Shown: positions 9,066 through 46,414 of the stretch, piece after piece
How the letters are laid out: each line of letters begins with the position of its first letter
How positions within the stretch are numbered: the first letter of the stretch is position 1
IMG/VR virus record: IMGVR_UViG_3300034072_001301
Span: 1 to 47,029 of that record
Source of the DNA: a virus
Direction: 5' to 3' (one strand)
DNA: 47,029 nucleotides
Program-made: the position numbers and the translations under genes
Notes under the pieces: model-generated
What the model saw: only the letters and a program-made list of their open reading frames with translations
Told to the model about the DNA's origin: nothing
Databases searched by the model: none

Positions 9066-9415
9066 TACCAGAGTATCCTCCATTTAAAGGTGTTACCGGT
9101 GTTGGCCTTTAGAGGTGTCACTTGGTAACCCAGATCTACAAATGTCTTGCGAACTATGTCGATCTGTTCAGTCAAAGTTCTGATATTCACATCAGTAAAA
9201 AGCGTCGCAAAATAGTCGCTTGGATCAATCACATCCTCATTCTGATAGTTCACATCAAGCGGATTGGTCATTGGGCTATTTGCCACTTCGACTTCGTATT
9301 GGCCTTGCTCTATTGCTTGATATATGGCTTGCTCAATCGCTCTGATTTCAGCATGGATAATCAGATTATTACGAGAGCCAGCTCTTGCTTCTGCTGCGGT
9401 AGGAAAGGTGCTCAT
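9065..9415 (-). CDS. Conserved T4-like phage protein, 116 aa
   Basis: The protein begins MSTFPTAAEARAGSRNNLI, continuing into a long helix (HAEIRAIEQAIYQAIEQ), a pattern I associate with a small conserved protein of cyanophage-like myoviruses. A beta-rich stretch and a C-terminal DLGYQVTPLKA...FKWRILW segment follow. No enzymatic motif is visible. It overlaps the upstream gene by four bases and the downstream gene by one, so it is translationally coupled to both. Function unknown; a virion role is likely from the late operon. Confidence 0.65.
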   Translation of the reverse strand: MSTFPTAAEARAGSRNNLIIHAEIRAIEQAIYQAIEQGQYEVEVANSPMTNPLDVNYQNEDVIDPSDYFATLFTDVNIRTLTEQIDIVRKTFVDLGYQVTPLKANTGNTFKWRILW

Positions 9416-15458: not shown

Positions 15459-15704
15459 ATGGGTGATATAATCAAAAGTGTAGTCGAGATGATCGCCAAA
15501 GGAGATGGAGGAGCATTAACGGCTCTCCTTCTAGGAATCATTGGTGTCTTGGGCTGGTATTGCTTTCGTCTAACTAAGCAATTGGAAAAAAAGGACGAGA
15601 AGATTTACAAGATCATTGACGATTACTCAAAAAATAACATCACTATCACAGAAGCCATGAACGGCTTAAAACTGGTTCTGATTGAGATCAAGGCAAAGCT
15701 CTAA
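15459..15704 (+). CDS. Single-pass membrane peptide with cytoplasmic coiled coil
   Basis: The 81-residue protein has an amphipathic start (MGDIIKSVVEMIAKGD), one hydrophobic segment (GALTALLLGIIGVLGWYCF, residues about 18-36), then a charged coiled coil beginning RLTKQLEKKDEKIYK. The positive residues after the segment predict that the C-terminal coil is cytoplasmic. It overlaps the PAS-protein start by one base, so the two are translationally coupled. It could be a membrane anchor or partner for the PAS protein. A holin-like or lysis-control role is also possible, but there is no diagnostic motif. Confidence 0.7.
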   Translation: MGDIIKSVVEMIAKGDGGALTALLLGIIGVLGWYCFRLTKQLEKKDEKIYKIIDDYSKNNITITEAMNGLKLVLIEIKAKL

Positions 15705-17374
15705 TGATGAAATGGCTGTTTGAAAGCAAAGAAGCTGCTGCCAAACGCGCATCACGTGCGGAGACCTTGAAAGTAGCACTGGAGTCAAGTGAAGCTCTTG
15801 AAAAAGCAGCCAAAGGAACGTTGGATCTGGCTGCTGATGTTACTGAGACTCTTCAAGCCAAAATTGACGACTATACGACCCAGATCGACCAAACCGCCAG
15901 GCTATTGAATGATGCCTTGATGCTGGTGAGCCCTGAAGGTGAAATACAAAGCTATAACCCAGCCGCTGAATCCATGTTTGGATGGAAGAAAAGAGAAGTA
16001 GTTGGCAAAAAGATCAGTATCCTTTTTCAGTTTCCTGAGGACCCTGTAATTGATGTAGACTTCATGGAATCGTTGGTAACGCAGGTAAACACTAATGATG
16101 AGTTTACCAGCGTGAACTATGAAGATTTCAAAGGTATCAGAAAAGACGGAAGCGTTATCTATATAGACGTTTCAGCAAGCAAGGTAGTTCGCAGCGACAA
16201 GAAAATTTACTATATCATGTTGGTCAGAGATGTCACACATCAGGTCAACAATAGTATTATGATACGTGAACTGGCTGAGCACAATCAAGAACTTATAACA
16301 ACAATTGATGCGTCCAGCACTGGGTTCATGATCCTTAACCCAGATGGATCCGATTTCAATATCAGTTTTGTTAATGAAGGTTTCGCCAAACTGGTTGGGT
16401 TCAAGAGATCAGCTATCAAGAAAATGAATCTACGTGATTTGTTTGGAACAGACTCCACCTTTTGGACTATTCGTAGAACCCTCATGGAAGGTGTAGAAGG
16501 CAGACACGAAATCCAATTCGACATTGGAGTTAGTCAAACTGCCGTATTTGAGGTTCACCTGACACCTGTGAAAAAAGCTTCTAAGCCAGTTCAATGGATT
16601 TTGGTATTCTATGACACAACCGAATTGAAGAAGGCATACCAAGCTCTTGGAAAAAGCCAAGCAACGTTCAAGGCATTTAGCGATGCTAGTTCTGAAAGCT
16701 TGATAATTCATGATCACACTAGACTGATGGAATGGAATGATAGAGTTATTCTCCTAACAGGATACTCTGACTCAGAGCTAGAAACCATGAATCCTTCTGA
16801 TTTGCTTCATCCTCTTGAAAGAGAAAGGATGCTATTCAAGCAACATGATATAGAGGATTCATCTTATGAGACTCTATTCCTTACCAAGACCGGTGAGGTA
16901 AAGGATGTTGCCATCAATAGCAAACCAATTGAGTGGGATAACACCGACGCCAGAATAGCCATTGTTCGAGATGTCACAGCGTTCAAGGATGTGGAAACTC
17001 AGTTGAAGACCTCTCGTGAAAGATATAAAACCGTAGTAGACAATACCATTGATCTCATTGTTTGTTTCAACAAAGACTTTGAAATCACCTTTTCGAACCA
17101 AACGTTTCGAGACTATTTTGATGTAGAGGTAGAAGACATAAACGGTTTCAGTCTACTAGAAATCATCCCTGAATCTGATCATAACAAGTTCATCAAATAC
17201 ATGCTGGAAGTTCTTCCGGGCCAGGAAATTCGTCGCGGTGTTCATCGTGTCAAAAGGCATGATGAAATCAGGTGGCAGGATTGGATTGATCGAGGCATCT
17301 TCGATGAAGATGGTAATTTGATTGAAGTCCAAAGTGTTATACGAGATATCACTCATCTCATACCCAGTCAATAA
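15704..17374 (+). CDS. Four-PAS-domain sensory protein without an output domain
   Basis: The 556-residue protein has an N-terminal helical region (residues 10-60) and four tandem PAS/PAC units at about 60-180, 190-310, 316-430 and 436-553. Landmarks are NPAAESMFGW, RKDGSVIYIDV and LVRDVTHQ in the first; NEGFAKLVGF in the second; LTGYSDSEL and IVRDVTAF in the third; and NQTFRDYFDV and VIRDITH in the fourth. It ends right after the last PAC, with no histidine kinase, GGDEF, EAL or HTH domain. PAS units bind ligands, haem or flavin, or partner proteins. A role as a cytoplasmic sensor tethered by the coupled membrane peptide is inferred. Confidence 0.85.
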   Translation: MMKWLFESKEAAAKRASRAETLKVALESSEALEKAAKGTLDLAADVTETLQAKIDDYTTQIDQTARLLNDALMLVSPEGEIQSYNPAAESMFGWKKREVVGKKISILFQFPEDPVIDVDFMESLVTQVNTNDEFTSVNYEDFKGIRKDGSVIYIDVSASKVVRSDKKIYYIMLVRDVTHQVNNSIMIRELAEHNQELITTIDASSTGFMILNPDGSDFNISFVNEGFAKLVGFKRSAIKKMNLRDLFGTDSTFWTIRRTLMEGVEGRHEIQFDIGVSQTAVFEVHLTPVKKASKPVQWILVFYDTTELKKAYQALGKSQATFKAFSDASSESLIIHDHTRLMEWNDRVILLTGYSDSELETMNPSDLLHPLERERMLFKQHDIEDSSYETLFLTKTGEVKDVAINSKPIEWDNTDARIAIVRDVTAFKDVETQLKTSRERYKTVVDNTIDLIVCFNKDFEITFSNQTFRDYFDVEVEDINGFSLLEIIPESDHNKFIKYMLEVLPGQEIRRGVHRVKRHDEIRWQDWIDRGIFDEDGNLIEVQSVIRDITHLIPSQ

Positions 17375-23484: not shown

Positions 23485-24510
23485 TTATCTCAGCCGTTGC
23501 CGTTGTACACCTATTGATAACCTATCTTTGGTTCTGGCGTCAATAATCGACCAGATCGTATATAGCTTACCATAAGCCTTTACGGCATCCGCCGCGTCCT
23601 TGATTCCTTCATCCCAACGAGGAAAGGACACATGCCAGCCTTGAGCTAAAGCAGTATCAACTAGTCGTCCTCCTTGGTTTGTGCGATCAGGCACAACGAT
23701 CTTGGTTTTGCCGGTTTGGTTTAACCACTGAATTTGTTCAGCAGTTACTTTATCACCTAGCATAGCAACACCATTGACCGCGATTCCGTCAAATGGTCCT
23801 TCATTTATGAATAGATATTCCCAATCCTCTTTGATGGCATCAGTATTGAAGATATAATGAGGTTGGACCTCACTGTAATAGCGGCGACTACTGGATCCGT
23901 TGACTATCCTGGCTGTCCAACCAACAATCTCATTTTCCCAATAGAATGGAATAATAACCCTCTGGTTCATTCCATCAGTGGTGTCTGGTGTCCAATAGTA
24001 GTCATATGACAGTAGGATATCCTCACCTCTATTGGCCACATAGTTGAGCACCTCCAGGAAGTGAGGATCCTCGCAATTCTCCTCAAGCCAAAAGGCTATA
24101 GGCTTAGCAGACTTTGGTAGGTTTCTGGATTCAAAAGTGATTGAAGCAGAAGCCTGCCGGGTAAAAGACTGCTCTATGCCACCCCCTTCAAGGAGAGTTT
24201 TGCGTAGAAGAGAAACATCAAAATCAAGACGTCTAATCTTCTCACTTGGCATACCTAGCCACTCAAAATACTTTCTCCACTTTGTAGAGAAACGAGCACC
24301 AGGAGACCAACCTGCTCGGAAACCACAGTTAAAGCAGGAAACCGAAGTCCGACCGTCAGAGTCAAACAAAATACCCGAACGTTTTTTGGTGTCTGCCCTC
24401 ATCTGTCCGTTATGAATACAGCATGGACCATTGAACGTAGTCCAACGGCTGGGGGTTTGTTTACCCCCAGGGATACAGCTCATTAGGGCACTATAGATGA
24501 GGGTAGACAT
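23485..24510 (-). CDS. 61: DNA primase, T4 gp61/DnaG type
   Basis: The 341-residue protein has an N-terminal zinc site (CC-IH near residues 30-33 and CFNCGF near 58-63) and a TOPRIM domain (YLFINEGPFDGIAVNG near 215-230, IVVPDRTN near 251-258). The start ATG overlaps the upstream stop (TGATG), so it is coupled to the TGT-like gene. It makes RNA primers at the fork with gp41. The length matches T4 gp61 (342 residues). Confidence 0.93.
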   Translation of the reverse strand: MSTLIYSALMSCIPGGKQTPSRWTTFNGPCCIHNGQMRADTKKRSGILFDSDGRTSVSCFNCGFRAGWSPGARFSTKWRKYFEWLGMPSEKIRRLDFDVSLLRKTLLEGGGIEQSFTRQASASITFESRNLPKSAKPIAFWLEENCEDPHFLEVLNYVANRGEDILLSYDYYWTPDTTDGMNQRVIIPFYWENEIVGWTARIVNGSSSRRYYSEVQPHYIFNTDAIKEDWEYLFINEGPFDGIAVNGVAMLGDKVTAEQIQWLNQTGKTKIVVPDRTNQGGRLVDTALAQGWHVSFPRWDEGIKDAADAVKAYGKLYTIWSIIDARTKDRLSIGVQRQRLR

Positions 24511-26183
24511 CAAGCAAATAGTCCGTTGTTGACAATTTGTAGCTTGGGCTTGTTCTCAGCCAGATGAGGGGCTTCTGCTTCCTTCTTGGCCTTGAGCGCG
24601 TTGACGTGATCCTTTTGATTGGCAACTTCAAACAATTGAAGATCCAAAACACCACGTTCCGCGTTGTCACTCGCTAGATAATTGAGAACCTTACGGTTTC
24701 TTTCAATTACTGACATTGGAGTTTCACTACTGAAAACTTCTTCGACAACCGACTTGATTTCAAGAAGTTGCTGAGGCACCGCAGAAGGATCGCCCTTGTC
24801 ATATAGGTCTTGGGATTCGTAAACACCCTCAAGATGAACCTGAACATTGTGATTCATCAACATCGCATAGGTAACAACGTCCCATGTTGAAGTAAACTTG
24901 GGATCAACGTTGACGCAAATGTCACCCATTTTCAACTGCTCGCCAATTTGGGTTCTGACAAAACGCGAACCCTCAACACCATCTAGACGTTCATGGAACA
25001 TCTCTTCCAAGACATCCAGGAATGGTCGGTCAGCGTCTTTGCCCTTGGGCGGTAGAGGAATCTTATTGCCGTTGTCATCAAGCAAATACTTGATGCGATC
25101 CTTGCCTGTTGAAATCATCTCATAACCAATCTGCTCAACACCCTCATCGTCTATATAGGTGTTGGTTGGGAGATAGTTTCGACCGTCAAGTTTTTCACCC
25201 TGAATACTCCAACTATCCTTATTCAGGTTATAACCCAAAAACACCTTACCATATGCCGCCAGAGTAAAGGGCGAACTCACATCATACGAAATAGTAAAGT
25301 TGGGATTGATCTGTTCACGAACCTGACGCTGGATCGTTGTATAGACGCAGCCGTGCTGGAACTTACCAACACCTAGGAAGTGCATCCAATCGCGGTCCTG
25401 TAGGACACCGTCATCGCGCATGTTGATGATGCGTCCCAGAGACATCTCAAAGTTTTCTTTGTGGTGCGAAGCTAGCGACCAACCTTCAAAGGGATAGTGC
25501 TTGACGTTTTCATACCAGATTTTGGATTCGCTTGCGTTACGACCCTGAACCACATTCAAGAACTTGGTGGCACCTGGAACTCGATTTTTTACAAAATAAT
25601 CATTGTTGATCAGCGTTTGAAGCATACACGCATAAAACAAGCGATCATTCTTGTTGTTGACGTTGCCGCCATTTTTGATGATCAAAGCATCTAGAGCTTC
25701 TTTGTTTCCTGAATCAACAATATTGGGATCCAACGGGCTCTCGAGTCGCGCGAGGTGCTGGTCGATGTTACCAATCTGGATGCCACCAGTTGGGAAGTCG
25801 AGAATCATCGACCAATCACAGTTAGCTTCCATCCAACGCATCATGCGTTCGCGAGTCTTGTCACCCTCAAACTTGATCGCACCGGTCTGGATCTGGAAAC
25901 CACCTGAGTCACCAAGAACGGTAGTTGAACCACGATCACGGCCAGTAACCATGTCTTTGCGTTCAGCAATACCGCTGCTCTTAGCTGCCTGGCCCGCTGA
26001 ATACAGCGCGCTAGGTAGATAAAAGAGACTACTATTGGGGTTGAAGAAGTTCAGTTCCTCGCGTGGAATAGGTGGCTCACGCTTGGGGTTTTCCGCATTT
26101 ACATAGCGGACATACATTTCTGAAATGGCAGGAGTGAATCGCGCATAGTCGCGATACCTCTTAGAATAATCAATTCCGGGCAT
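24510..26183 (-). CDS. tRNA-guanine-transglycosylase-like protein (DpdA-like)
   Basis: The 557-residue protein starts MPGIDYSKRYRDYARFTPAI with AGAGG upstream; an upstream in-frame GTG is disfavoured. VLGDSGGFQIQTG (residues about 88-100) is the TGT substrate-pocket motif with its catalytic Asp, ILDFPTG follows, FLGVGKFQHGC resembles the TGT glycine loop, and SYDVSSPF is the candidate nucleophile Asp motif. The C-terminal zinc site of tRNA-TGT is not visible. Phage DpdA proteins of this fold insert 7-deazaguanine bases into DNA. Coupling to the primase and helicase genes supports a DNA substrate; this is inference. Confidence 0.75.
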   Translation of the reverse strand: MPGIDYSKRYRDYARFTPAISEMYVRYVNAENPKREPPIPREELNFFNPNSSLFYLPSALYSAGQAAKSSGIAERKDMVTGRDRGSTTVLGDSGGFQIQTGAIKFEGDKTRERMMRWMEANCDWSMILDFPTGGIQIGNIDQHLARLESPLDPNIVDSGNKEALDALIIKNGGNVNNKNDRLFYACMLQTLINNDYFVKNRVPGATKFLNVVQGRNASESKIWYENVKHYPFEGWSLASHHKENFEMSLGRIINMRDDGVLQDRDWMHFLGVGKFQHGCVYTTIQRQVREQINPNFTISYDVSSPFTLAAYGKVFLGYNLNKDSWSIQGEKLDGRNYLPTNTYIDDEGVEQIGYEMISTGKDRIKYLLDDNGNKIPLPPKGKDADRPFLDVLEEMFHERLDGVEGSRFVRTQIGEQLKMGDICVNVDPKFTSTWDVVTYAMLMNHNVQVHLEGVYESQDLYDKGDPSAVPQQLLEIKSVVEEVFSSETPMSVIERNRKVLNYLASDNAERGVLDLQLFEVANQKDHVNALKAKKEAEAPHLAENKPKLQIVNNGLFA

Positions 26184-26203
26184 TGACGGCCTCTTGTTTT
26201 GTT

Positions 26204-26231
26204 CGTGTTTAACCACTTTAGGCTAAACACG
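26204..26231 (-). terminator. Hairpin upstream of the TGT-like gene
   Basis: An 8-bp stem CGTGTTTA/TAAACACG with a 12-base loop lies after the stop of the structural protein and in the leader of the next gene. There is no T-run on the minus-strand 3' side. Confidence 0.45.
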
Positions 26232-31421: not shown

Positions 31422-31918
31422 ACCAATTGTGTAATATCCAGGGCTTCTGGAATCTTGTTGGTATCTTTGACGAAGAAGCAACACTGTGGTGATGGTTCAT
31501 CGCTCAAAGGTGCCGCAAGAATATGCCCATACTTGAGTTTGGGAAAATACCATTTTACATCAGGGAAGACATTCATGATTTCAATATCATGAAAGTGTGG
31601 CATATAACCATTGATGGGATTGATAGAAAACGCATCAAAGGAACGGTCGTTCAGTTGCTTGAGTGAAATAATCTCAAGATCACCTGAATTTTTGTCACCA
31701 ATCACGATACTCCAATCCATTGGCATTTGAATACGATATTGTCCAAGTCGCAGATCAACTGCTGGACTGTTGAAGCTTTCTAGAAAAAGCAGCGGGATGA
31801 ATAGGTAGTCAACATTCTGTTGGTCACTATAATCTAGAACACAATAGCGAATGTCTTCTACTTCATCTGGAATGTTATTCATTTCGAATGTGGAATTGTC
31901 AGTTGTAAGAATTCGCAT
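31418..31918 (-). CDS. Conserved phage protein downstream of uvsW, 166 aa
   Basis: The protein is beta-rich with conserved-looking stretches: YLFIPLLFLESFNSPAVDLR, QMPMDWSIVIGD, KWYFPKLKYGHILAAPLSD and CCFFVKDTNKIPEALDI. I recall close counterparts in T4-like cyanophages, always without an assigned function. Start and stop overlap both neighbours by one to four bases. No catalytic motif is evident. Confidence 0.75.
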   Translation of the reverse strand: MRILTTDNSTFEMNNIPDEVEDIRYCVLDYSDQQNVDYLFIPLLFLESFNSPAVDLRLGQYRIQMPMDWSIVIGDKNSGDLEIISLKQLNDRSFDAFSINPINGYMPHFHDIEIMNVFPDVKWYFPKLKYGHILAAPLSDEPSPQCCFFVKDTNKIPEALDITQLV

Positions 31919-33411
31919 CAGGATAGATCCTTGATATAGTCCACTTTATGGACCTTGTATGGATAGTTGGCAGCTTTGTAGGTCTTCTTTCGTTCAGTTA
32001 CGTGCTTGGCGCTGAACTTACAGGTGGAAGCAATATCGTAGACCTGAACAAAATCCTTGTCCTTGGCCTTGCGAATTCCTCGTCCAATTGACTGAATCAC
32101 TCGAACAAAGCTTTTACCTGGTTCCACCAAGATGAGATTGAAGATCCTGGGAATGTTGATTCCCACTGCCGCAACCCCATAAGAAGCAATAACGATTTGA
32201 TTGGTACCTTGACCAATCTCTTCATATGCTTCTTGCCTATCCTTGGCCTTACTATTTCCATAAACAAAGGTAGCTTCCGGCAGACGCTCCGCCAATTGCT
32301 TACCAGTTTCAATGCGATTAATCAGCACCAGAGTGTTACCCGTCAGTGCTGTTTTCTTGGTGAACTCACTAATCCAATCCAAATGATTGGGATCAGTTAC
32401 AAGGAAGTTGTTCTCTTCATGAAAAGATTCAAATTCCAAGCTATCCATAAGCTGCAGGATATCAATCTGCAGGTTGGATAACACACCCATATCCATGAGA
32501 TCACTGGCCGCTAGACGATTGACCACAGGGCCAAGGCTCGCCAGAATGCTAGTGTATTCATGTTCTTCTTTGGGGACGGTTCCTGTCAATCCCCAGCGAA
32601 TTGGCACATTGGCAAAGGGACCACAGAGCAGAGATTTCAACTTATCTGCTTTGGCCATATGAGTCTCATCGACCATGATAGCCACAACATCCTTAGTGAA
32701 AGTATCAATATCCTGCTGTGTTGGTTTCAGATTGTTTTTCTTGGAATTCTTATCCAAGATATCAAGACTCTGCCAAGTACAGATGGTATGTGTTTTTCCA
32801 TAGTCCTTTCGGTCGCCATAGTAGACGCCTACATCTAGACCTAGGTTTTTGTAGTCAGCTTCAGTCTGATCGACCAAGCTCTTATTGGGAACGATAACAA
32901 TGGTTCGCCCATGCGCTTCGCATAGATGACTCAAAGTCGCAGTAAGTAGGGTTTTTCCTGCACCAGTGGCAATCTCTTGGATACTTTGTGGGTTTTCCAA
33001 GAAGGCTCTGATGATTTCTACTTGATATCCTCTCAAACCAATAGCTTCACCAGCTGCTGGATGACCAGCAGGCCAAACTGGGTTGGGCGCGTTGAGTGCG
33101 ATATAGTCTTCGTCAACATATGGGAATTCAAAAACCCTAGGGGTTCTTTGATCCACTAGTTCAATCTCATAACCATTGCTGATAACAATGTCCAAGACCT
33201 TATCTAGAAGGTTGACGTGAGTGTTCCCGTTAAGAGCAAAGAAGCTGACACAACCGTCCCACCTGCCAAGCTTAAAAGCTGGCATGTGGCGCGCGGCGTG
33301 GATGAAAAACTTGAGCGCGGCATTACAGTCGCGACGAGTTTTTGGATCCAAATCTTCAAACGTTGCGTTAACCTCATCTTTGATGATGAGTCTGCACTTC
33401 TTGATTGTCAT
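31918..33411 (-). CDS. uvsW: UvsW-type superfamily 2 helicase
   Basis: The 497-residue protein has an N-terminal UvsW domain, then helicase motifs: IATGAGKTLL (motif I), MVDETHM (motif II), GLTGTVPK (motif III) and QSIGRGIRKAKDKD (motif VI). It remodels recombination intermediates, regresses stalled forks and unwinds R-loops in T4-like phages. The start ATG follows AGAGGG, with the A-rich AAAAAGAACAA 11 bases upstream. A late motif and a hairpin lie in the 140-base gap before it. Confidence 0.93.
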   Translation of the reverse strand: MTIKKCRLIIKDEVNATFEDLDPKTRRDCNAALKFFIHAARHMPAFKLGRWDGCVSFFALNGNTHVNLLDKVLDIVISNGYEIELVDQRTPRVFEFPYVDEDYIALNAPNPVWPAGHPAAGEAIGLRGYQVEIIRAFLENPQSIQEIATGAGKTLLTATLSHLCEAHGRTIVIVPNKSLVDQTEADYKNLGLDVGVYYGDRKDYGKTHTICTWQSLDILDKNSKKNNLKPTQQDIDTFTKDVVAIMVDETHMAKADKLKSLLCGPFANVPIRWGLTGTVPKEEHEYTSILASLGPVVNRLAASDLMDMGVLSNLQIDILQLMDSLEFESFHEENNFLVTDPNHLDWISEFTKKTALTGNTLVLINRIETGKQLAERLPEATFVYGNSKAKDRQEAYEEIGQGTNQIVIASYGVAAVGINIPRIFNLILVEPGKSFVRVIQSIGRGIRKAKDKDFVQVYDIASTCKFSAKHVTERKKTYKAANYPYKVHKVDYIKDLS

Positions 33412-33455
33412 TGCGACCCTCTTTGTTCTTTTTTTGTTTTGTGGGTCATAGGAAA

Positions 33456-33494
33456 GCCCTACTAGTCTCCTGATTATACGGAGTCCAGTAGGGC
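33456..33494 (-). terminator. Hairpin between the SNF2-like gene and uvsW
   Basis: GCCCTACT/AGTAGGGC closes an imperfect longer stem (inner GGAG/CTCC). It lies between the late motif at 33528-33536 and the uvsW start, so late transcripts must pass through it. Confidence 0.55.
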
Positions 33495-33527
33495 CGTGTC
33501 TATAAACTGGAGGTAGTCCCCACTCCA

Positions 33528-33536
33528 GTATTTATC
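33528..33536 (-). promoter_or_regulatory. Late-type promoter element GATAAATAC upstream of uvsW
   Basis: It lies 117 bases before the uvsW ATG, farther than the other late motifs, with a hairpin in between. T4 uvsW is late-expressed, which fits. Confidence 0.5.
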
Positions 33537-33551
33537 GAGAAATCCAGCTTT

Positions 33552-35084
33552 TTAGCGGAGTTGTTTGTAGATATCTTCTTCGAACGTGTTAAGAATAACT
33601 CCATTCACAATTCTAGTGCCAGTGGCCGCAGCAGCTTCCTTGACACTATCCCAGTATACCTGGCTGGTGGGAGGATCGACCATGAACAAAAAGTTACTAA
33701 CCTTTAGAAGGTCTGGTTCTTCTATCAAGTCATCAATCGTTACAACGAGATTCCCAAGAGGAATTCTCATCTTTTCCCAGCTGGCTCCGGCCACACTTCT
33801 ATAAATGATAGGATCGAGATATCGAGAAATAGCAATATCACGGTTATCAGATGAATCCAAAATCTCCAGGCGATTGCCCATGCTCAACAACAATGATCGT
33901 TTGATATCTTGGCTGTTTGTCAGAAACAGACACTTGGTCAAACGATTCGCCAATTGGGTATGAATATTCTTGAGATGCTGAACCTTTAAGCTTGCCCATT
34001 GCGGGGTCATTAGATCCCCTATGAGGGTCATAGAGGGCCCATCGCCATTCAGGGCACGCCGTACAACCTCTGACAGTTTCAATCCTGTCGCTTCTTCTAT
34101 ATCCCTCTCACGGGAAATTAGTCTAGAGAGGCCGCTCTTGCTTTGAGATTGTGCCAGAGACTTAATCGTAGCATCATAAAAGGTGATCAGATTTCTCTTA
34201 TTGTTTTCGATTTCCAAGAGATGGCTAGATACTCCGAATAGACTCAAAATCTTCAATCGGTCCAAACCAGCATAACCAATAGAAGACAGGTAAGCTTCAC
34301 ATTCCTTTAAGTCATAACCATTGGCAAATGTGTTTAGATGGCTTATACCTGGCCACATATAGCTGGTGATATTGTCGCCAATAAATTGAAGTGCTTTGCT
34401 GTAGTTAGTCTGTAGACTGGCTAGGTTATCTCGGCCAGCATCATGTGGCAAATCGTTTATGTCTTGGATGAAAAGAGGAGATGGAATTTCGTAGAAAAGA
34501 CCAGCTACACTACTGGACCATTTATGATTCACCGCACCGGGGTGACTTAGTTCCTCGACGATGGTTTGATCAATATCAACCTGGTTGATTAGATCATGCC
34601 AGATTAGTCCACTATAGCTGGTAACAAAGAAGTCAGCTGACAAGTCTGGGCTTTCCGAAAATTCCACCCCATCAGGGAATACCTGTGACTTTTCTAGATA
34701 TCTAGGATTACCAAAGACACTGATTGTGGCTTCAGGAAAAGCAGTTCGTATCAATTGAGCCCAGATGTGATAAAGCTTTGGTTGTGACATAACAACCGTC
34801 CGACCACCAGAAAGCCAGGCGTTAGCCAGAGCAACGTGTCGGGACTGGTCCGGTCCATCACAAAGAATCATTCCTCTACCGTTCCAGTCTCGAATGAACT
34901 GAAGACAGGAGATCTGAAGACCACTGAGTTGAAAAGCAAAATCTTTGAAATCTTGAGGATCCAAGAGATCCTGAAAAGCTAGATCAACGAGCTTTTCATC
35001 AAAGTTAAGATTCTGCATTTGACTAAAGGACAGTAGGCGACGCGCCAATCCCGGAGTCGCTGCGAACTTTTTGACATCATACAT
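33552..35084 (-). CDS. Degenerate SNF2-type helicase-like protein
   Basis: The 510-residue protein keeps the SNF2 layout but not its catalytic residues. GMILCDGPDQSRHVALANAW (71-90) stands where Walker A GxGKT should be, ADFFVTSYSGL (150-160) matches motif Ib, TIVEELSH (174-181) replaces DEAH, and PLFIQDIND replaces LTGTP. The C-terminal lobe ends GVILNTFEEDIYKQL, like the conserved TxEExI end of SNF2 proteins. It is likely ATPase-dead. It begins one base after the HARP-like gene and precedes uvsW. Confidence 0.65.
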   Translation of the reverse strand: MYDVKKFAATPGLARRLLSFSQMQNLNFDEKLVDLAFQDLLDPQDFKDFAFQLSGLQISCLQFIRDWNGRGMILCDGPDQSRHVALANAWLSGGRTVVMSQPKLYHIWAQLIRTAFPEATISVFGNPRYLEKSQVFPDGVEFSESPDLSADFFVTSYSGLIWHDLINQVDIDQTIVEELSHPGAVNHKWSSSVAGLFYEIPSPLFIQDINDLPHDAGRDNLASLQTNYSKALQFIGDNITSYMWPGISHLNTFANGYDLKECEAYLSSIGYAGLDRLKILSLFGVSSHLLEIENNKRNLITFYDATIKSLAQSQSKSGLSRLISRERDIEEATGLKLSEVVRRALNGDGPSMTLIGDLMTPQWASLKVQHLKNIHTQLANRLTKCLFLTNSQDIKRSLLLSMGNRLEILDSSDNRDIAISRYLDPIIYRSVAGASWEKMRIPLGNLVVTIDDLIEEPDLLKVSNFLFMVDPPTSQVYWDSVKEAAAATGTRIVNGVILNTFEEDIYKQLR

Positions 35085-35085
35085 A

Positions 35086-35751
35086 TCAAGACTCCAGATT
35101 CTTAATGGCGTTCAACCAACCATTCAACAGACTATCATTTTTGACAACCACGGATATTGTGTCGCCATCAACTATGACGTCACTTCGTTGACCTCGACTA
35201 TTTTCAATGTTCATGAAGAATTCAGCAACCGTGTCATCGAATGAGAAGCGATGGCGTTTGATAACATCCATTACCTTTTGGTAATTCTCACTATTGACAT
35301 CAACTAGCCAGAGTTTTTCTTTGCTGAAAGTTGGAAAAAATTGAGGCAAAAAGTGGTTTTCGCCTTTGAGCTTTTTGATGTCTTCAATGATACCGGCGTT
35401 GTACTTACATCTGAAGACCAGCTTGTTATCACCAGCCCAGCGGACTTCTCTGGGCAGAAGTGTCGATTGATAGGGTGGAATAGCATACCTAGGGAAAGCC
35501 AAAAGCTGATCTAGCTCACCTGCTGTAAGCCCGCAACATAGGAGGTGATCTCGATAGCGATCAATTAGCTTCAACACAACCGCACTCTGGGCCGTGCTGA
35601 TAGCTTTGCCATTGCGCGAATGCTCTGCTACGTCGCCTAGAAAGCGTCTATCCCAAACATTCGTAATCTCGAATATCTGACCGGACGGGTCTGCTACCGG
35701 ACGGAGGCAAATTCCCTCGAGCTTCTTAAGACACGTCTCCACTGTTATCAT
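35086..35751 (-). CDS. HARP-domain-like protein, 221 aa
   Basis: Residues about 103-178 follow the HARP pattern of SMARCAL1-type remodellers: VRWAGDNKLVFRCKYNAGII, then EDIKKLKG, a KLWLVDVNSENYQKVMDVIK strand-helix unit, and FSFDD. In such enzymes HARP precedes an SNF2 motor and guides it to fork DNA. Here the order is the same but the two parts are separate genes, with the SNF2 part degenerate. The N-terminal 95 residues include GKAISTAQSAVVLKLIDRYR, a helical region. No paper known to me describes this pair. Confidence 0.5.
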   Translation of the reverse strand: MITVETCLKKLEGICLRPVADPSGQIFEITNVWDRRFLGDVAEHSRNGKAISTAQSAVVLKLIDRYRDHLLCCGLTAGELDQLLAFPRYAIPPYQSTLLPREVRWAGDNKLVFRCKYNAGIIEDIKKLKGENHFLPQFFPTFSKEKLWLVDVNSENYQKVMDVIKRHRFSFDDTVAEFFMNIENSRGQRSDVIVDGDTISVVVKNDSLLNGWLNAIKNLES

Positions 35752-36181
35752 TTCGCACGACCTTCAAATCTTGAATAGTCATACGAACTAGCATGGCATC
35801 GTCTCTAGAAGCAAAATTCAAAAGAATATATTGCCTATGATCAGTGGGCATCTCTACGATTTTTGTGATTTTATCTTCCGGGTCATTCAAGGAGTCATGA
35901 ACTATCTCTGTTGGTGTGGTAATGGTCCTGCCGTAAGAATCCCAATACCATTCCGATCTACAAATCTTACCCACTTGGTACAAGATTGCCTTGGCCTTAT
36001 TTCTCAATTCTGAATAACTTCCCCCTGTCATCAGAGATCCGTTATCCAGCTCAAACGTGACGCTAGTCTGATCGAAATCAATAGAATTCCGCTGACGATC
36101 GAGGTGAGGAAGAGACCATGGTTCAGCACGGTCGTCTTCAAACAGAACTGATGTGAGTGCTGATTCGTTATGTGTGATCAT
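35726..36181 (-). CDS. Small protein of the DAxxFKLT family, 151 aa
   Basis: The protein ends ILLNFASRDDAMLVRMTIQD, a diverged copy of the motif shared with 27512-27910 and 30831-31094. Upstream are a beta-rich part (FDQTSVTFELDNGSLMTGGS) and an aromatic helix (AKAILYQVGKICRSEWYWDS). It overlaps both neighbours (four bases upstream, 26 bases downstream), so it is tightly coupled to the AAA+ ATPase and the HARP-like gene. Function unknown. Confidence 0.65.
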   Translation of the reverse strand: MITHNESALTSVLFEDDRAEPWSLPHLDRQRNSIDFDQTSVTFELDNGSLMTGGSYSELRNKAKAILYQVGKICRSEWYWDSYGRTITTPTEIVHDSLNDPEDKITKIVEMPTDHRQYILLNFASRDDAMLVRMTIQDLKVVRNDNSGDVS

Positions 36182-37332
36182 CGTTGCCTCAAAAGGGTCA
36201 CTTCAGCAACCCTTTCCCAATTGGGATTACCCTTACGCAAGCTCGCTAGCTGACCAACTTTACGCAGGGACAGTTCCCGAAACCGCTTGGCGTGTGTATG
36301 TGTCCATGCGAGAACTTCGTCAATTTCTTTGGGATCCAAACCAAATTGACTCTCCAGCATTCGCAAGTCACGAGCAACATGATCGATGCGAATCAACTTT
36401 TCCCTGGTGGTGTCAATGGTCAAGTCCAGATACAAGCAACGACTCATGATAGCTTCGAGATGAGGGGCAAGTCGCGCCGTTCCCTTTTCAACAATCTTCT
36501 CAAAATTGATGTTGGTGATAAAGATCACGCTACCCTTGAACTCAAACTGATTTGGAGCGTCCGTTCCATTGCGGGAGTTTGAGCGCCAGCTGATCATACG
36601 ACGTCCGCTAGTATCAAGGGCAGCTTTGAGAAGGTTCAGAGAAGTTTCATCCCCGAGGACCGCGTCACAGTCATCGAATACTAGGGTTTCTTTGCTTTCG
36701 CTGTATTCGTAGAGCGTGGTATAGAGAGCAGGAGCAGTGCTATAGCCTTTGATAATATTGTATCGGGCTTTGAAGCTGCCATTCCTACCGACCCGACGGT
36801 GATTTTGATCTTTGGCATCTGCGTTGAAGCTCAGCTTATCCATGAGCGAGTCACGATTCAAAGCAGCCTCTACTTCATGAGACTTACCAACCCCGGAGGC
36901 ACCGCTGACCACCAAGCCCTTGATATTTCCTCTGGCAATGTCAGCCGTTAGATTACCGAGGATAGTGAACCTTTCGATAATACGTTCACGAATTTCCTCA
37001 TCAGTTTCAGCATTGCCACGATTTGATCCAGGAACGATCTGATCGAGAATGTCTCCAGTCCCCAGAAACCGCTGAATCTTGGGATCAGGGGATCCAGTGA
37101 ACTGACGACGTGCCCTGGGGGCGAAGATATCAGCTTTCTGATCTTCCAGAACTATATCAGAAGGTTCAGAGATGCCAATACGGAAATTGCGTTGTGGATA
37201 TCCTGCGACCCCTGTGCCGTTGACTGTGATAAAGGGACCCTTTTGGCCAATCGACAAACCACGGTCCAACTCAAAAGTCTTATTCAGGATTACCTGGTTA
37301 TTCCAGTCACCACGCTTGACTAGTACTTTCAC
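36178..37332 (-). CDS. AAA+ ATPase
   Basis: The start is a GTG (MKVLVKRGDWNNQVI) after GGAGATATGG. The 384-residue protein has Walker A VVSGASGVGKSHEV (140-153), Walker B TLVFDDCDAVL (near 215-225), sensor 1 VIFITNINF (near 270-278), then an arginine-rich lid domain. The N-terminal 70 residues form a separate small domain. Related ATPases occur in large T4-like phages without clear function. A remodelling or loading role in recombination is inferred from neighbours. Confidence 0.8.
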   Translation of the reverse strand: MKVLVKRGDWNNQVILNKTFELDRGLSIGQKGPFITVNGTGVAGYPQRNFRIGISEPSDIVLEDQKADIFAPRARRQFTGSPDPKIQRFLGTGDILDQIVPGSNRGNAETDEEIRERIIERFTILGNLTADIARGNIKGLVVSGASGVGKSHEVEAALNRDSLMDKLSFNADAKDQNHRRVGRNGSFKARYNIIKGYSTAPALYTTLYEYSESKETLVFDDCDAVLGDETSLNLLKAALDTSGRRMISWRSNSRNGTDAPNQFEFKGSVIFITNINFEKIVEKGTARLAPHLEAIMSRCLYLDLTIDTTREKLIRIDHVARDLRMLESQFGLDPKEIDEVLAWTHTHAKRFRELSLRKVGQLASLRKGNPNWERVAEVTLLRQR

Positions 37333-37487: not shown

Positions 37488-37973
37488 TCAAACAGCATTT
37501 CCATTGTCAACCGAATAATCCTCAAACCCGGCTGCCTTGAGTCTAGTCAAGTTGCTAATTTGCCAGTTCTTGGAATCCAGACCCTTCATGATTGCTAGAT
37601 ATTGGTTGCGAACCAACGCTACCTGATTAATCAGCAGTGCGATTTCAATTACCTTGTCATCAGCATCTGCATATTTCTCGGCATCACGCGAGCTCAAAGA
37701 CCTAGCATATCCTTCAAGATACTTTTTGAAGGCAGCACCTTTGACCTGATCAAACCGAATATTTAGGTACTTGAGAATTGCCTCAACTTCCTGAAGTTGA
37801 CCAAAACGCAAGGTGGTAATACCGGGCAAACGGCTTGACGCTTTTTCAAGGCTTCCTTTGAGGTGAGTCTCATGTCGGGCGATTTCTAGTTCGCCTTCAA
37901 AGTAGACAATGGCGTCAATCAGTGGACTGAAATCAGATGGATCAGCAGTGACCCTTGAATACCATTTACTCAT
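37488..37973 (-). CDS. Conserved phage protein in the uvsX unit, 161 aa
   Basis: The protein is mainly helical, with FGQLQEVEAILKYLNIRFDQ, FKKYLEGYARSLSSRDAEKY and VALVRNQYLAIMKGLDSKNW, a pattern I recall in T4-like cyanophages near uvsX. A recombination mediator role like UvsY (137 residues in T4) is possible from size, helicity and position, but I see no clear sequence match. It lies 59 bases after a 76-residue acidic protein, with a strong hairpin between. Confidence 0.55.
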   Translation of the reverse strand: MSKWYSRVTADPSDFSPLIDAIVYFEGELEIARHETHLKGSLEKASSRLPGITTLRFGQLQEVEAILKYLNIRFDQVKGAAFKKYLEGYARSLSSRDAEKYADADDKVIEIALLINQVALVRNQYLAIMKGLDSKNWQISNLTRLKAAGFEDYSVDNGNAV

Positions 37974-38264: not shown

Positions 38265-39371
38265 TTACTCTTCGTTTTCTGCGGCTTCGGCAGCAGCCAT
38301 TTCAGCCAGTTCAGCTGCCTTTTCAGCCGCCTTTGCTTCTTCTCTACGGTCCATGTGAACCTGGAACTCAGACATTACTAGATCAAGCAGATCATGGTCA
38401 ATTTGTTTGCGGAACTTCTTGATTTCCTCACCGTCCAAAGTGGTATACTTGAGTTTGTTACCATCCTTGACAAAAAGACCCTTTGCTTCAAACATATCCA
38501 GAAGACCCGAATATGGATCCAAACCACTATCCCAAGGAATACGCAGCTCAACCGTTTCAAATGGCTTGTTGTATCGAGTCTTCATGATCTTGATCTGAGA
38601 CCTGATACCGTTAACCGTAGTCGTTTTGTTGCCTTCTTCATCTTCCTTGAGCTTGAGCTTGCGCATCGCAAGCACAATGGAGGAAGCATAAATGAAGCCC
38701 TGACCGCCGGTGATCTTGTCATCAGGATCGAACATATCCTGGCTGGCATAGCTGTGGTTGGTACATACAAGACCTACGTCCCATTCACCAAACATATTCA
38801 CACAGTTGCGAACCAGAGCATTCAGAGCCTTGGGCTTGCGACCCATGTCGCCCTTCATTTCACCAGCTTCAAACTGATTAACATCAGTTGGAGTCAGCAA
38901 CATACCAAGCGAGTCAACAACAAAGAGAACCTTTGGACGGTCCTCGCGAGGAGTGCTAGAATAGGCGTTCTTGAAGTTCTTCATGAAATCACTGATGATT
39001 TTCGCAACATCATCAATCATCGCAGCGTTGATCTTCAGCAGCTTGTCTTCACTGACATCCACATCTAGTGCGGTCAGCCAATCTGAATCAAGAGCATTCT
39101 CACTGTCAATGAGAACTACGAAGTATCCCTGGTCTTGTGCGTTCTTGACCAGATTACCAGAAGCTAGATAAGATTTGCCAGAGCCCGACTGGCCCGCAAA
39201 CATCGTGACCTTACCCAGAGGAATTCCCTTGGTGAAGTCGCCACTAACGGCATAATTGAGGGCAAAGTTGCCCGTGCTGACCCAATACTTTGGGTCATTA
39301 AAGCCGACGGAAATGCCGTCAAGGCCTTTGGTGATATCTTTCCTAAACTTGGATAAATCTACAGGCTTCAT
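38265..39371 (-). CDS. uvsX: UvsX recombinase (RecA/Rad51 family)
   Basis: The 368-residue protein has Walker A FAGQSGSGKS near residues 58-67, the catalytic region LIDSENAL, Walker B VLFVVDSLGMLLTP near 148-161, the L2-adjacent KITGGQGFIYASSIV, and a C-terminal Glu/Ala-rich helix. The length is near that of T4 UvsX (391). It forms filaments on single-stranded DNA and drives recombination-dependent replication with gp32. Upstream is a TGGAGCCAA element shared with the gp32 leader. Confidence 0.95.
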   Translation of the reverse strand: MKPVDLSKFRKDITKGLDGISVGFNDPKYWVSTGNFALNYAVSGDFTKGIPLGKVTMFAGQSGSGKSYLASGNLVKNAQDQGYFVVLIDSENALDSDWLTALDVDVSEDKLLKINAAMIDDVAKIISDFMKNFKNAYSSTPREDRPKVLFVVDSLGMLLTPTDVNQFEAGEMKGDMGRKPKALNALVRNCVNMFGEWDVGLVCTNHSYASQDMFDPDDKITGGQGFIYASSIVLAMRKLKLKEDEEGNKTTTVNGIRSQIKIMKTRYNKPFETVELRIPWDSGLDPYSGLLDMFEAKGLFVKDGNKLKYTTLDGEEIKKFRKQIDHDLLDLVMSEFQVHMDRREEAKAAEKAAELAEMAAAEAAENEE

Positions 39372-39536: not shown

Positions 39537-40550
39537 TTAGCCGTTTAGACCAGCCTGCTTTTCCTTGATGCGACGGAGGATTTCCGAAGCGTCAGGAGTT
39601 CCAGCAGGACGTGCTGCCGGAGCAGCGGCTTCCTCAACAGGAGCCGAAGGGGCCGGAGTGGCCGAGGCACGCTGAAGAGCAGCAAAGGGATCAGCAGCAG
39701 GAGCCGCTGAAGTCTGAGGTGCTGCCGCAGGGGCTGCAGGTGCAGAACCCTGGTTGCCCCAGTTACCACCGCCAGCTGGCTTGTAGAACTGGCTCCAACG
39801 AGCAGGATCATAAGCTTCGTCGTTTACCGAAGCCTGGAACATTTCCTTGATAACTTCCAGCTGCTCAGCAGTAGGCTTCGCAGGGAGGAATTCAGAAAGG
39901 TTCTTTAGACCATGGGTTTCAATAGCCTGTGCCTCTTCTTCACTCAGGGCACGTGGCTTCATGCTCCACTTGCTGGTGCTGTAGTTGGCAAAGCCACCCT
40001 TTGTGGTCTTGATCAGACGGAAGTCACGACCAGCGATATAATCGGTTGGTAGATCTTCCATTTCAGGATCCATTAGCGAACCCTTGATGATGTCAAAGAT
40101 GCTGGTGTTGATCATGAAGCGACGAATTGGATTTTCAGGAACTTCCTTTTCCTCAAATCCACTCTGAACCACAAAGCCCTGGAACAGGTATGACTTCTTC
40201 TTCCAGTACTTGCGAGCAAGGTTCTGAAGAGAATCATCCTTCCACCAAGGACGGGTTTCAGCTAGGATTGGGCAAGTTTCGCCATACATTTCCATGCAGG
40301 GAACCTGAACTAGGACTTCACGGTCGTGCTCGCCCTTGATACCCTGGAACGGAAGCTTGATAACAAGACGTTCCTTCCAGAAGAAGGTGTTATTGGTGTC
40401 ACCATCGGGGAGGAAGCGGATCATCGAGGATCCACCTTCGGGCACGTTCCAGAAAGGATACATGGAGTTGTCACCGCTGTTGCGGTTGCCGCCTTCAGAC
40501 TTTGTCTGCTGGGCTAGAAGTTTGGCGCGGATTTCATCAAGTGTTGCCAT
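39537..40550 (-). CDS. 32: Single-stranded DNA-binding protein gp32
   Basis: The 337-residue protein matches T4-like gp32: MYPFWNVPEGGSSMIRFLPD, the zinc-lobe region around His75, Cys85 and Cys93, then FVVQSGFEE...NPIRRFMINTSIF and YDPARWSQFYKP. It coats lagging-strand and recombination ssDNA and recruits UvsX and helicase loader. The C-terminal 80 residues are an Ala/Pro linker ending in a basic helix (ASEILRRIKEKQAGLNG) instead of the acidic tail of T4 gp32. The fourth zinc ligand is not obvious. Confidence 0.93.
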   Translation of the reverse strand: MATLDEIRAKLLAQQTKSEGGNRNSGDNSMYPFWNVPEGGSSMIRFLPDGDTNNTFFWKERLVIKLPFQGIKGEHDREVLVQVPCMEMYGETCPILAETRPWWKDDSLQNLARKYWKKKSYLFQGFVVQSGFEEKEVPENPIRRFMINTSIFDIIKGSLMDPEMEDLPTDYIAGRDFRLIKTTKGGFANYSTSKWSMKPRALSEEEAQAIETHGLKNLSEFLPAKPTAEQLEVIKEMFQASVNDEAYDPARWSQFYKPAGGGNWGNQGSAPAAPAAAPQTSAAPAADPFAALQRASATPAPSAPVEEAAAPAARPAGTPDASEILRRIKEKQAGLNG

Positions 40551-43837: not shown

Positions 43838-46414
43838 TTAGAAGCTCATAGGCATTGGCGCTGAGCTAGTGTCGTCCATATCACCTGTGCTTTTTAGGTT
43901 TTCTTCAATCTGCTCTTCCCAATCAGCGCAAATCTGTAGGAGACGAACTATCTGTAGGGTTCCCATGACCAAGTCATCATTTACCCCTATTTTGCCCTTG
44001 TAAGACCCGCCACCGCGCACAAAGTTCTTGAGCTCCGTGAGTAGCGCTCTGCTCTTCAGAGTCATTCTACGGGTCTCTACGAGCGTTTTAAAGCGTGCGC
44101 AGGCGGTCATCTTAGTTCTACTATTGGTGTTAAGACCTTTTCGACCTTTGCCGCCGCCGGTCTTGCGAGGTTCATGAGTGAAAATGCCTGGAAAATTCTC
44201 TTCACCGATAGTGTCAATGTAAACCAAAGCGGCTTCACCCAAGCTGTTGTTTTCAACAGTCCAGTAGATCTCAGGGTCACCATCCTGATCCGGGTGATTT
44301 ACTAGACTATGATGGATATACAAAAGAGCTTTTCTGAGGATCTCTACCTGGTCCTGGGTTATTGTCTTATTGTGTCTCCATTCAGCCACTTGAGTCAAAG
44401 TTGTCAGATCAAATACCTGAATCGCTGAGAAGTCAGAACCTGTTCCCATAGAAGGATCCAAAGTTGCCCCATATATATGATTGGGCTTGGGTTCTTCAAA
44501 CCAACGCATAGAGCCTATCTTGAAGATAGGTTCTTGTGGACTCAAATTGGCAAGTGTGATTGGGTTGATAAGGGTTTCGTCTTCAGAAACGAACTTACAT
44601 TCATATTCTCGTTGGAACTTTTCCTCACCAAGCTGTTGTCGCTGAGTTTGAGCCCATGCTTCGTCACGAGTTGGGTTCTTATCCCAGGTGATTTCCAATG
44701 GCTTATAACCATTACGACCTACGCCACCTGGAATGACTTCGCCATTGTCATCAATGTTGTTCTTGGCACCAAACCATATTTCAGCGAACTGATCTTCGTC
44801 ATTGTTTGGCGTACTGGTAATGATACAGCTACCACCGGTTGATAGTGTTGGAGCAATAGCTGACCAGAACTCAACTGCCTTGTTGGGCTGAACGAACGCG
44901 AATTCGTCTAGATAAAGCAGAGAGATCGAGAGACCACGACCAGCATCCTTGGATGTTGCGCGTGAAATGATCCTAGAGCCATTGTCAAAGGAGATTGTGC
45001 CCTTGTTGTATTCCACAACACCACTGCGAAGCCAGTTATACTGCTCGAGGTTCTCATACGCGAAACGAATACGATCCATGATCTCCAGCGCCGAAACAAA
45101 CTTATTAGCAGCAATCAGGATAGTGGTGTCTGGTTCAAACATAGCCTTCCAGAGAAGGAAACCAGCTGCGCAAGTGGTATTATGAGTTGGTACTAGAGTC
45201 TCACCGCATAGAAATAGATGATCATCATTATCGACCTGAAGACACCTGACTGGGACACTATCAGTTGGTTCAATAGATTTGATATAGATCCTAGTATTCT
45301 TTGGATGACTCTTACAAAGCTTCTGCCTCTCCAATTTTCTTTCCAATTTGAATATATCAAATGCGGATGTCGTAAATCTCAAAGACCAAGCAACTTTATG
45401 CCCAGTTTCCCTACTCGAAATCGTAGATTTGATTCCTAAGCTACTCAATAGAAGTCGAACCTGCCGAACCATAGTTTCATCACTTTGATAGAAATTACAG
45501 GTTCCATTCTTTTCCACTGATCCGTCAGTGTCCATTAATCCTCGTAGAAGCTCAAGGCGATTTTCTACTGATGTGAAGATATAGTAATCAGGAATATGCT
45601 TATTGGAAAGAACTCCCATTTGACGCAAAGCTATTTTAAAGCCACCAGCTATATTGAAGCTACCGGTGGTATCACTTCTCTTGTCCAGTCTGAATTTCGA
45701 GGATCTGAAGCCTGCTTTCTCTATCTCTCTTTGATAGGTCGGAAAGTCATCAATATGACAGGTGATTCCAGAAGAATTCCTACCACCGTCCCCTAGCCAT
45801 AGTCCCAAGAGATATGGATTCACAGGAAGTTGACTATCTTTAAACTTTATAGCTTCACAGTGTTTGATATGAATACTATGAGAGGTATCATTCCATTGCC
45901 TGAACTCTTCCAAAAGTTCAAGAGTAGTAATCGTCACAGTTTTTGGTTTTTTGGTTGGTATTACAACAGTCCAAAGATGCTCAGCATCAGCTATGACTGA
46001 ATCCCCGTGACTGAACTCTATAAGATAACAGGGACGATCATACATTGTTTCAGTTATGAACTGAATTCTGGTTGTTTCGCCGTCAGCCCCGTAGATCTCG
46101 TCGCCTATTTTAAGTTCACCCATTGTGGTGAATCCACTAGGCGTTAAGATAGGAGTATCTAAAGATAAGGCCTTGCCCATCTGTCGAGCAGTAAGTGCGA
46201 TGGTGTAACGATTCTTATGAAAGGAATCGATCATTTCTTCCTGATAAGGCCACAGCTTAAAGGGAACTCGACCTTGGGTCGGATGCTGGATCTTGACGTA
46301 GTTTTTACAGAAGTAAATGGGGTCAGACATACACTTTCTAAGTTCTTCAATCTGGTTTAGATTAAAGCGGTCCTTGCTGTACCCTTTTTTAATGATTTCA
46401 ATATCTTTTGCCAT
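43838..46414 (-). CDS. 17: Large terminase subunit gp17, intein-containing precursor
   Basis: The 858-residue precursor yields a 527-residue terminase after splicing. ATPase motifs: Walker A TARQMGK joined to TT after the intein, and Walker B LLYLDEFAFV. Nuclease motifs: ATLDPSMGTGSDFSAI, WTVENNSLGEAAL and GVNDDLVMGTL, giving three acidic residues. It translocates DNA into the prohead and cuts concatemers. Until the intein leaves, Walker A is split after its lysine, so packaging ATPase activity requires splicing. No Shine-Dalgarno sequence is clear before the ATG, and a hairpin sits just upstream. Confidence 0.95.
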   Translation of the reverse strand: MAKDIEIIKKGYSKDRFNLNQIEELRKCMSDPIYFCKNYVKIQHPTQGRVPFKLWPYQEEMIDSFHKNRYTIALTARQMGKALSLDTPILTPSGFTTMGELKIGDEIYGADGETTRIQFITETMYDRPCYLIEFSHGDSVIADAEHLWTVVIPTKKPKTVTITTLELLEEFRQWNDTSHSIHIKHCEAIKFKDSQLPVNPYLLGLWLGDGGRNSSGITCHIDDFPTYQREIEKAGFRSSKFRLDKRSDTTGSFNIAGGFKIALRQMGVLSNKHIPDYYIFTSVENRLELLRGLMDTDGSVEKNGTCNFYQSDETMVRQVRLLLSSLGIKSTISSRETGHKVAWSLRFTTSAFDIFKLERKLERQKLCKSHPKNTRIYIKSIEPTDSVPVRCLQVDNDDHLFLCGETLVPTHNTTCAAGFLLWKAMFEPDTTILIAANKFVSALEIMDRIRFAYENLEQYNWLRSGVVEYNKGTISFDNGSRIISRATSKDAGRGLSISLLYLDEFAFVQPNKAVEFWSAIAPTLSTGGSCIITSTPNNDEDQFAEIWFGAKNNIDDNGEVIPGGVGRNGYKPLEITWDKNPTRDEAWAQTQRQQLGEEKFQREYECKFVSEDETLINPITLANLSPQEPIFKIGSMRWFEEPKPNHIYGATLDPSMGTGSDFSAIQVFDLTTLTQVAEWRHNKTITQDQVEILRKALLYIHHSLVNHPDQDGDPEIYWTVENNSLGEAALVYIDTIGEENFPGIFTHEPRKTGGGKGRKGLNTNSRTKMTACARFKTLVETRRMTLKSRALLTELKNFVRGGGSYKGKIGVNDDLVMGTLQIVRLLQICADWEEQIEENLKSTGDMDDTSSAPMPMSF
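45179..46171 (-). other. Class 3 intein with LAGLIDADG homing endonuclease in gp17
   Basis: The 331-residue intein starts ALSLDTPILTPSGFTTMGEL right after Walker A Lys81 and ends VPTHN before Thr-Thr. Position one is Ala, not Cys/Ser. The class 3 triplet is complete: Trp148 in EHLWT (block B), Cys391 in VRCLQV (block F) and Thr410 in PTHN (block G). Two LAGLIDADG motifs are present: LLGLWLGDG and LLRGLMDTDG. Known class 3 inteins start splicing from the block F cysteine. The endonuclease would home into intein-free gp17 genes. Confidence 0.88.

Follow-up and report, generated by a model that had tools for sequence, protein, structure and literature searches.

A 47-kb stretch of viral DNA from a large T4-like phage (47,029 nucleotides, the whole of which is hereafter called the window) carries on its minus strand a recombination cassette in the order gp32, uvsX, uvsY-like, AAA ATPase, 151-aa open reading frame (ORF), HARP-like, SNF2-like, uvsW. 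The gene for a gp32-like single-stranded DNA-binding protein (39537-40550; PF08804, E=3.4e-10) is followed by uvsX of the RecA family (38265-39371; PF00154, E=1.7e-14) and by a gene for a uvsY-like recombination mediator (37488-37973), for which UvsY (PF11056) was the best match but sub-threshold (E=0.076), and whose counterparts in relatives lie directly after uvsX. The cassette AAA ATPase (36178-37332) belongs to PHROG 1250, a family of unknown function. The 151-aa ORF (35726-36181), also without an assigned function, has variable homologues in close relatives and shares 26 nt with the HARP-like gene.

The two genes of principal interest encode proteins of 221 aa (HARP-like, 35086-35751, minus strand) and 510 aa (SNF2-like, 33552-35084, minus strand). 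They are adjacent ORFs, as stated in the original prediction made from the letters of the window, and a single nucleotide separates the stop codon of the first from the ATG of the second. Together with the 26-nt overlap upstream, this spacing suggests that the two genes are probably co-translated. The gene that follows them (31918-33411, minus strand), likewise predicted to be uvsW, was identified by sequence comparison as a true member of this fork-regression and branch-migration helicase family: T4 UvsW (2OCA) matches it with E=2.3e-22, it falls in PHROG 16, and its GAGKT and DETH motifs are intact. A search of 11 phage records for an intact SNF2 protein elsewhere gave nothing above the cut-off, and the only weak SNF2 matches fell at the uvsW locus, so UvsW is the likely motor at this locus and the proposed motor partner of the pair.

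Between the SNF2-like gene and uvsW lies an intergenic stretch of 140 nt (33412-33551, minus strand) containing a strong hairpin (z -4.0) with TATAAT in its loop, a possible regulatory element or uvsW promoter. Several other genes of the window were of separate interest. The terminase large subunit gene (43838-46414, minus strand) carries an in-frame, intein-like Hint/LAGLIDADG insert, and the largest plus-strand ORF (15704-17374) encodes a 556-aa protein with about four PAS domains and no recognised output domain. A 555-aa protein (7416-9083, minus strand) has an N-terminal inorganic-pyrophosphatase-like domain (PF18823) and a long tail. A 568-aa protein (24510-26216, minus strand) gave no match in a Pfam search; it contains an LGDSGGFQ motif reminiscent of tRNA-guanine/DNA-deazaguanine transglycosylases, and a role in DNA-base modification is possible.

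SNF2 ancestry and catalytic motifs of the 510-aa protein

No Pfam or PHROG model matched either the 510-aa or the 221-aa protein, and PDB sequence searches with both returned nothing reliable. The curated Pfam SNF2 model (PF00176) was unmatched, and no SNF2 or helicase model was recovered at E<=10 in 22 SNF2-like members. An alignment of 13 full-length members was therefore compared by hhalign with a reference set of 11 active SNF2 proteins, consisting of annotated-phage SNF2 helicases and Escherichia coli RapA. The resulting match (Prob 93.9, score 67.4, 428 columns) spans residues 24-510 of the window protein, so that its two-lobe SF2 core is alignable with SNF2 proteins end to end; the motif VI region is followed by an SNF2-like terminus, TFEE. 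Scores were 16-27 for the control families UvsW, UvsX and AAA, at most 22.7 for 60 column shuffles, 14.3 for the reversed alignment, and at most 25.9 for 25 further families encoded by the same phages. Dropping single divergent members left the score at 55-68. It fell to 36.9 with close relatives only and to 39-46 with subsets of the active SNF2 proteins, still above the controls, indicating that the full signal needs diverse members. The originally claimed SNF2 relationship is thus borne out well above the controls, and the 510-aa protein is, by these alignments, a genuine, full-length but degenerate relative of SNF2 helicases.

The same alignment places the catalytic motifs of active SNF2 proteins in register with substituted sequence in the window protein. 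Motif I, GLGKT in active proteins, reads DQSRH (residues 77-83, GPDQSRH; 34835-34856, minus strand), with the Walker A lysine replaced by Arg82. Motif II, VDEAH in active proteins, reads VEELS (residues 174-181, TIVEELSH; 34542-34565, minus strand). The motif VI region, RAHRIGQ in active proteins, reads KEAAAATG. Lysine was found at the Walker A position in none of 23 distinct SNF2-like homologues (arginine in 16), and the GxGK(T/S) signature is absent from the family, as are conserved P-loop glycines and Ser/Thr. None of the 23 has DEAH: most close members have VEEL, with the DE pair reading EE (Glu177-Glu178 in the window), and one member (L100) has SDEF. The motif VI arginine finger (RxHRxGQ) is not kept in full-length members, which have KEAAAATG and similar sequences. 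Loss of Walker A and DEAH, which had been predicted for the window protein, thus holds for all 23 homologues, and the substituted positions are themselves conserved (Arg82, VEEL). ATPase activity is predicted on this basis to have been lost across the whole SNF2-like family.

Eight distant homologues (249-319 aa) end after lobe 1. These single-lobe relatives align to the full-length SNF2-like members with an HH probability of 99.5%; compared directly with active SNF2 proteins they reach 0.1%, and their link to active SNF2 runs only through the full-length members. The original description of a dead SNF2 remodeller stands, motif loss being common to all relatives, and is refined by the finding that distant members keep lobe 1 only.

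The HARP-like partner and conservation of the pair

The 221-aa protein has an N-terminal helical segment (WDRRF...ISTAQ) followed by a HARP-like segment (REVRWAGDNKLVFRCKYN...KLWLVDV...FSFDD). The protein is conserved in Phosso and in 24 core and 10 wider relatives, and the family pattern is a helical WDxxF...LSTxQ, then REVRYxG-(N)KLxFRxK...KLWxVxV...F.FDD. Pfam HARP (PF07443) gave no match in the window protein, and a whole-record search with it yielded nothing but sub-threshold matches. One of 31 relatives scanned (L022) matched with E=0.02 and 14.9 bits against a cut-off of 25, which with 31 members scanned is not significant alone. Profile comparison of the HARP-like segment with UvsW_N and with the N-terminal parts of the active SNF2 proteins from phages gave no support, and no cellular homologues were found with the HARP-like alignment. 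The resemblance to HARP is accordingly weak and by pattern only, and the term HARP-like is used here in that sense. The original prediction held that the pair reproduces the domain order of SMARCAL1, HARP then SNF2, split over two proteins. The SNF2 half was upheld by hhalign and the HARP half reached only sub-threshold Pfam scores; the correspondence is likely rather than proven. At all loci the two parts are encoded by two ORFs and do not lie on one chain.

A fused form was found in many other T4-like contigs, in which a HARP-like domain is joined to an unrelated C-terminus of about 220 aa by a gene directly upstream of uvsW (for example L070:6775-7995 and L069:3683-4963, with relatives). 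The core HARP-like family is related both to this fused group and to L022 and L036 (HH probability 97%), and L022/L036 are related to the fused group at 99%. Since fused HARP-like genes stand directly before uvsW in these phages, it may be the HARP-like protein of the pair with which UvsW is more constantly associated. The C-terminus of the fused form was considered as an SNF2 remnant and rejected (HH probability <1%). A 181-aa gene on a 490-kb contig (L024) is HARP-like only at the margin (two-sequence HMM search, E=6e-8; HH 34%), and no relationship could be established for its 334-aa neighbour.

The pair is present in Sinorhizobium phage Phosso, an isolate of 469 kb (HARP-like homologue at 34% identity, E=1e-33), and on some 20 different IMG/VR contigs of up to 608 kb. 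The closest relative found, on a 435,856-bp contig (L083/L091), shares 73% identity in the SNF2-like and 87% in the HARP-like protein. When other sequenced phages were searched with the proteins of four loci (L100, L021, L102 and L105), homologues were found only in Phosso. The survey of gene order that the original prediction called for showed the two genes kept together within the uvsX-uvsY-uvsW cassette. At every locus with enough downstream sequence the SNF2-like gene directly follows the core HARP-like gene, and the pair lies between uvsX and uvsW, with uvsW following at once in most loci or beyond one to four other genes. Up to four genes intervene in L021, L102, L103 and L109, most of which have uvsX/uvsY-like genes nearby. 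The paired genes overlap by about 8-11 nt in L004, L021 and L066.

Selection was measured from locus pairs close enough for dS to be measurable. Values of dN/dS were 0.06-0.13 for the SNF2-like gene, 0.03-0.09 for the HARP-like gene and 0.00-0.04 for uvsW, and neither gene of the pair has internal stops. Between the window and L083, dN was 0.186, 0.077 and 0.011, respectively, which puts the two genes of the pair at 7-17 times the uvsW value. Both genes are functional and under purifying selection, and their rate of evolution far exceeds that of uvsW. A jumbo-phage lineage has kept the pair as a conserved module, situated in a replication-repair/restart cluster, and this is not a case of local decay.

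Proposed role and comparison with known systems

Fork regression is performed by UvsW in T4 and by SMARCAL1 and ZRANB3 in animals. An SNF2 fold dead by sequence and a partner that probably binds branched DNA, both encoded in the cassette beside a true motor, together suggest a complex that binds forks or D-loops. The explanation we favour, with about even confidence, is that the pair forms a two-subunit, ATP-independent DNA-binding complex derived from a SMARCAL1-like HARP-SNF2 helicase and most likely helps UvsW at forks. Recognition of branched or fork DNA would fall to the HARP-like subunit, and the SNF2-like subunit, its helicase fold retained, would act as a scaffold or as a clamp on duplex DNA without ATP hydrolysis. 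The complex would hold stalled forks, D-loops or regressed forks during recombination-dependent replication, and UvsW, helped to load and act there, would supply the motor. In such an arrangement the complex would recruit or regulate UvsW as a substrate-recognition cofactor whose motor is supplied in trans. The functional idea of the original prediction, a non-ATPase fork-binding complex that regulates UvsW or protects forks, is thus plausible and agrees with the survey of loci. Within this explanation the HARP fold, complex formation, DNA binding and action through UvsW are inferred. In its favour are SNF2 homology with in-register substituted motifs, conserved pairing and synteny, coupling distances, purifying selection, the lack of an above-cut-off SNF2 domain in the 11 phage records, and the fused HARP-like domain immediately upstream of uvsW in further phages. 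That HARP domains fused to other SNF2 proteins confer annealing-helicase activity (PMC4035279) also favours it. Counting against it are the sub-threshold HARP scores and the lack of profile support from SNF2 N-termini and UvsW_N. Loss of lobe 2 in several lineages speaks against a two-lobe clamp as a universal feature, and the elevated dN of the pair would also fit a host-facing role. More tentatively, we propose a pseudo-SMARCAL1 of jumbo phages: split into HARP-like and SNF2 parts and ATPase-dead, the complex would lend fork specificity to UvsW in trans, and a former remodeller would now serve a different helicase by recognising its substrate.

An appreciable though smaller chance is given to the pair acting not on UvsW but on UvsX/UvsY/gp32 filaments, which it would assemble, protect or take apart, with the SNF2 fold serving as a protein-protein platform only. 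The position of the genes between uvsX/uvsY and uvsW would suit such a role, as would the dispensability of lobe 2 and the four loci at which the pair is apart from uvsW and mostly still near uvsX/uvsY-like genes; however, uvsW is the immediate neighbour in most loci, and in other phages, too, it comes directly after the gene for a fused HARP-like protein. We regard it as improbable that the pair inhibits an SNF2-type enzyme of the host (e.g. RapA or defence SNF2 helicases) or acts as its decoy, a dead copy binding the same DNA or partner. Catalytic death and fast evolution relative to uvsW would suit a decoy, but synteny with replication and recombination genes is strict, the HARP-like partner is obligate, and there is no specific similarity to RapA, the profile signal being weaker with the RapA-containing subset. 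That the SNF2-like protein still binds or hydrolyses nucleotide through its altered motifs also seems quite doubtful: Arg82 and the Glu-Glu pair recur widely enough to invite the idea, but the P-loop glycines and Ser/Thr are not conserved, the motif VI arginines are absent, and distant members lack lobe 2. That the pair is what remains of a formerly active HARP-SNF2 helicase now in decay and largely or wholly without function, as graded loss of lobe 2 and rapid divergence might suggest, is very improbable given dN/dS of 0.03-0.13, the absence of stops, the conserved substituted motif positions and retention of the pair in about 20 contigs.

A conserved phage module with SMARCAL1-like parts but no ATPase, beside UvsW, would show that substrate recognition and motor of fork remodelling are separable. 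The explanation also suggests what two fast-evolving genes, listed as 'hypothetical' in many jumbo phages, may do, and it offers a small, purifiable system for studying how HARP-like domains and SNF2 lobes act when ATP plays no part. A search of the open-access literature for HARP or SMARCAL1 with phage and UvsW or SNF2 (subscription journals and preprints being outside its scope) returned general helicase papers only, and no earlier description was found there of a split, catalytically dead SNF2/HARP-like form of a fork remodeller in a phage recombination cassette.

Like the annealing helicases SMARCAL1 and ZRANB3, the phage pair presents a HARP-like segment followed by an SNF2 domain and would be expected to work at stalled forks. 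Unlike them, it consists of two proteins, lacks Walker A, DEAH and motif VI, reaches only sub-threshold HARP scores and lies in a uvsX-uvsW cassette. The active SNF2 helicases of Sphingobium phage Lacusarx, Erythrobacter phage XM05 and Moorella phage MTATph1 (L137, L136 and L135) are alignable with the SNF2-like protein over both lobes, but differ from it in matching PF00176 and in having GLGK(T/S) and DEXH motifs preserved. In a large comparative study of jumbo phages, the present phage group was credited with UvsX, UvsY and UvsW, and one of its subgroups also with UvsW.1; Snf2/Swi2 helicases were placed in other groups, and HARP occurs nowhere in the paper (PMC7824862). T4 UvsW with UvsW.1 offers a parallel in that an accessory gene stands beside UvsW in recombination-dependent replication; the same study describes UvsW.1 as small and trihelical (PMC7824862), whereas the pair is larger and of SNF2/HARP-like origin. 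A further parallel, in an isolate, is provided by genes 418 and 419 of Phosso, annotated only as hypothetical proteins, which are direct homologues of the pair (34% and 22-27% identity), stand in the same order before a helicase gene and have lost the same motifs.
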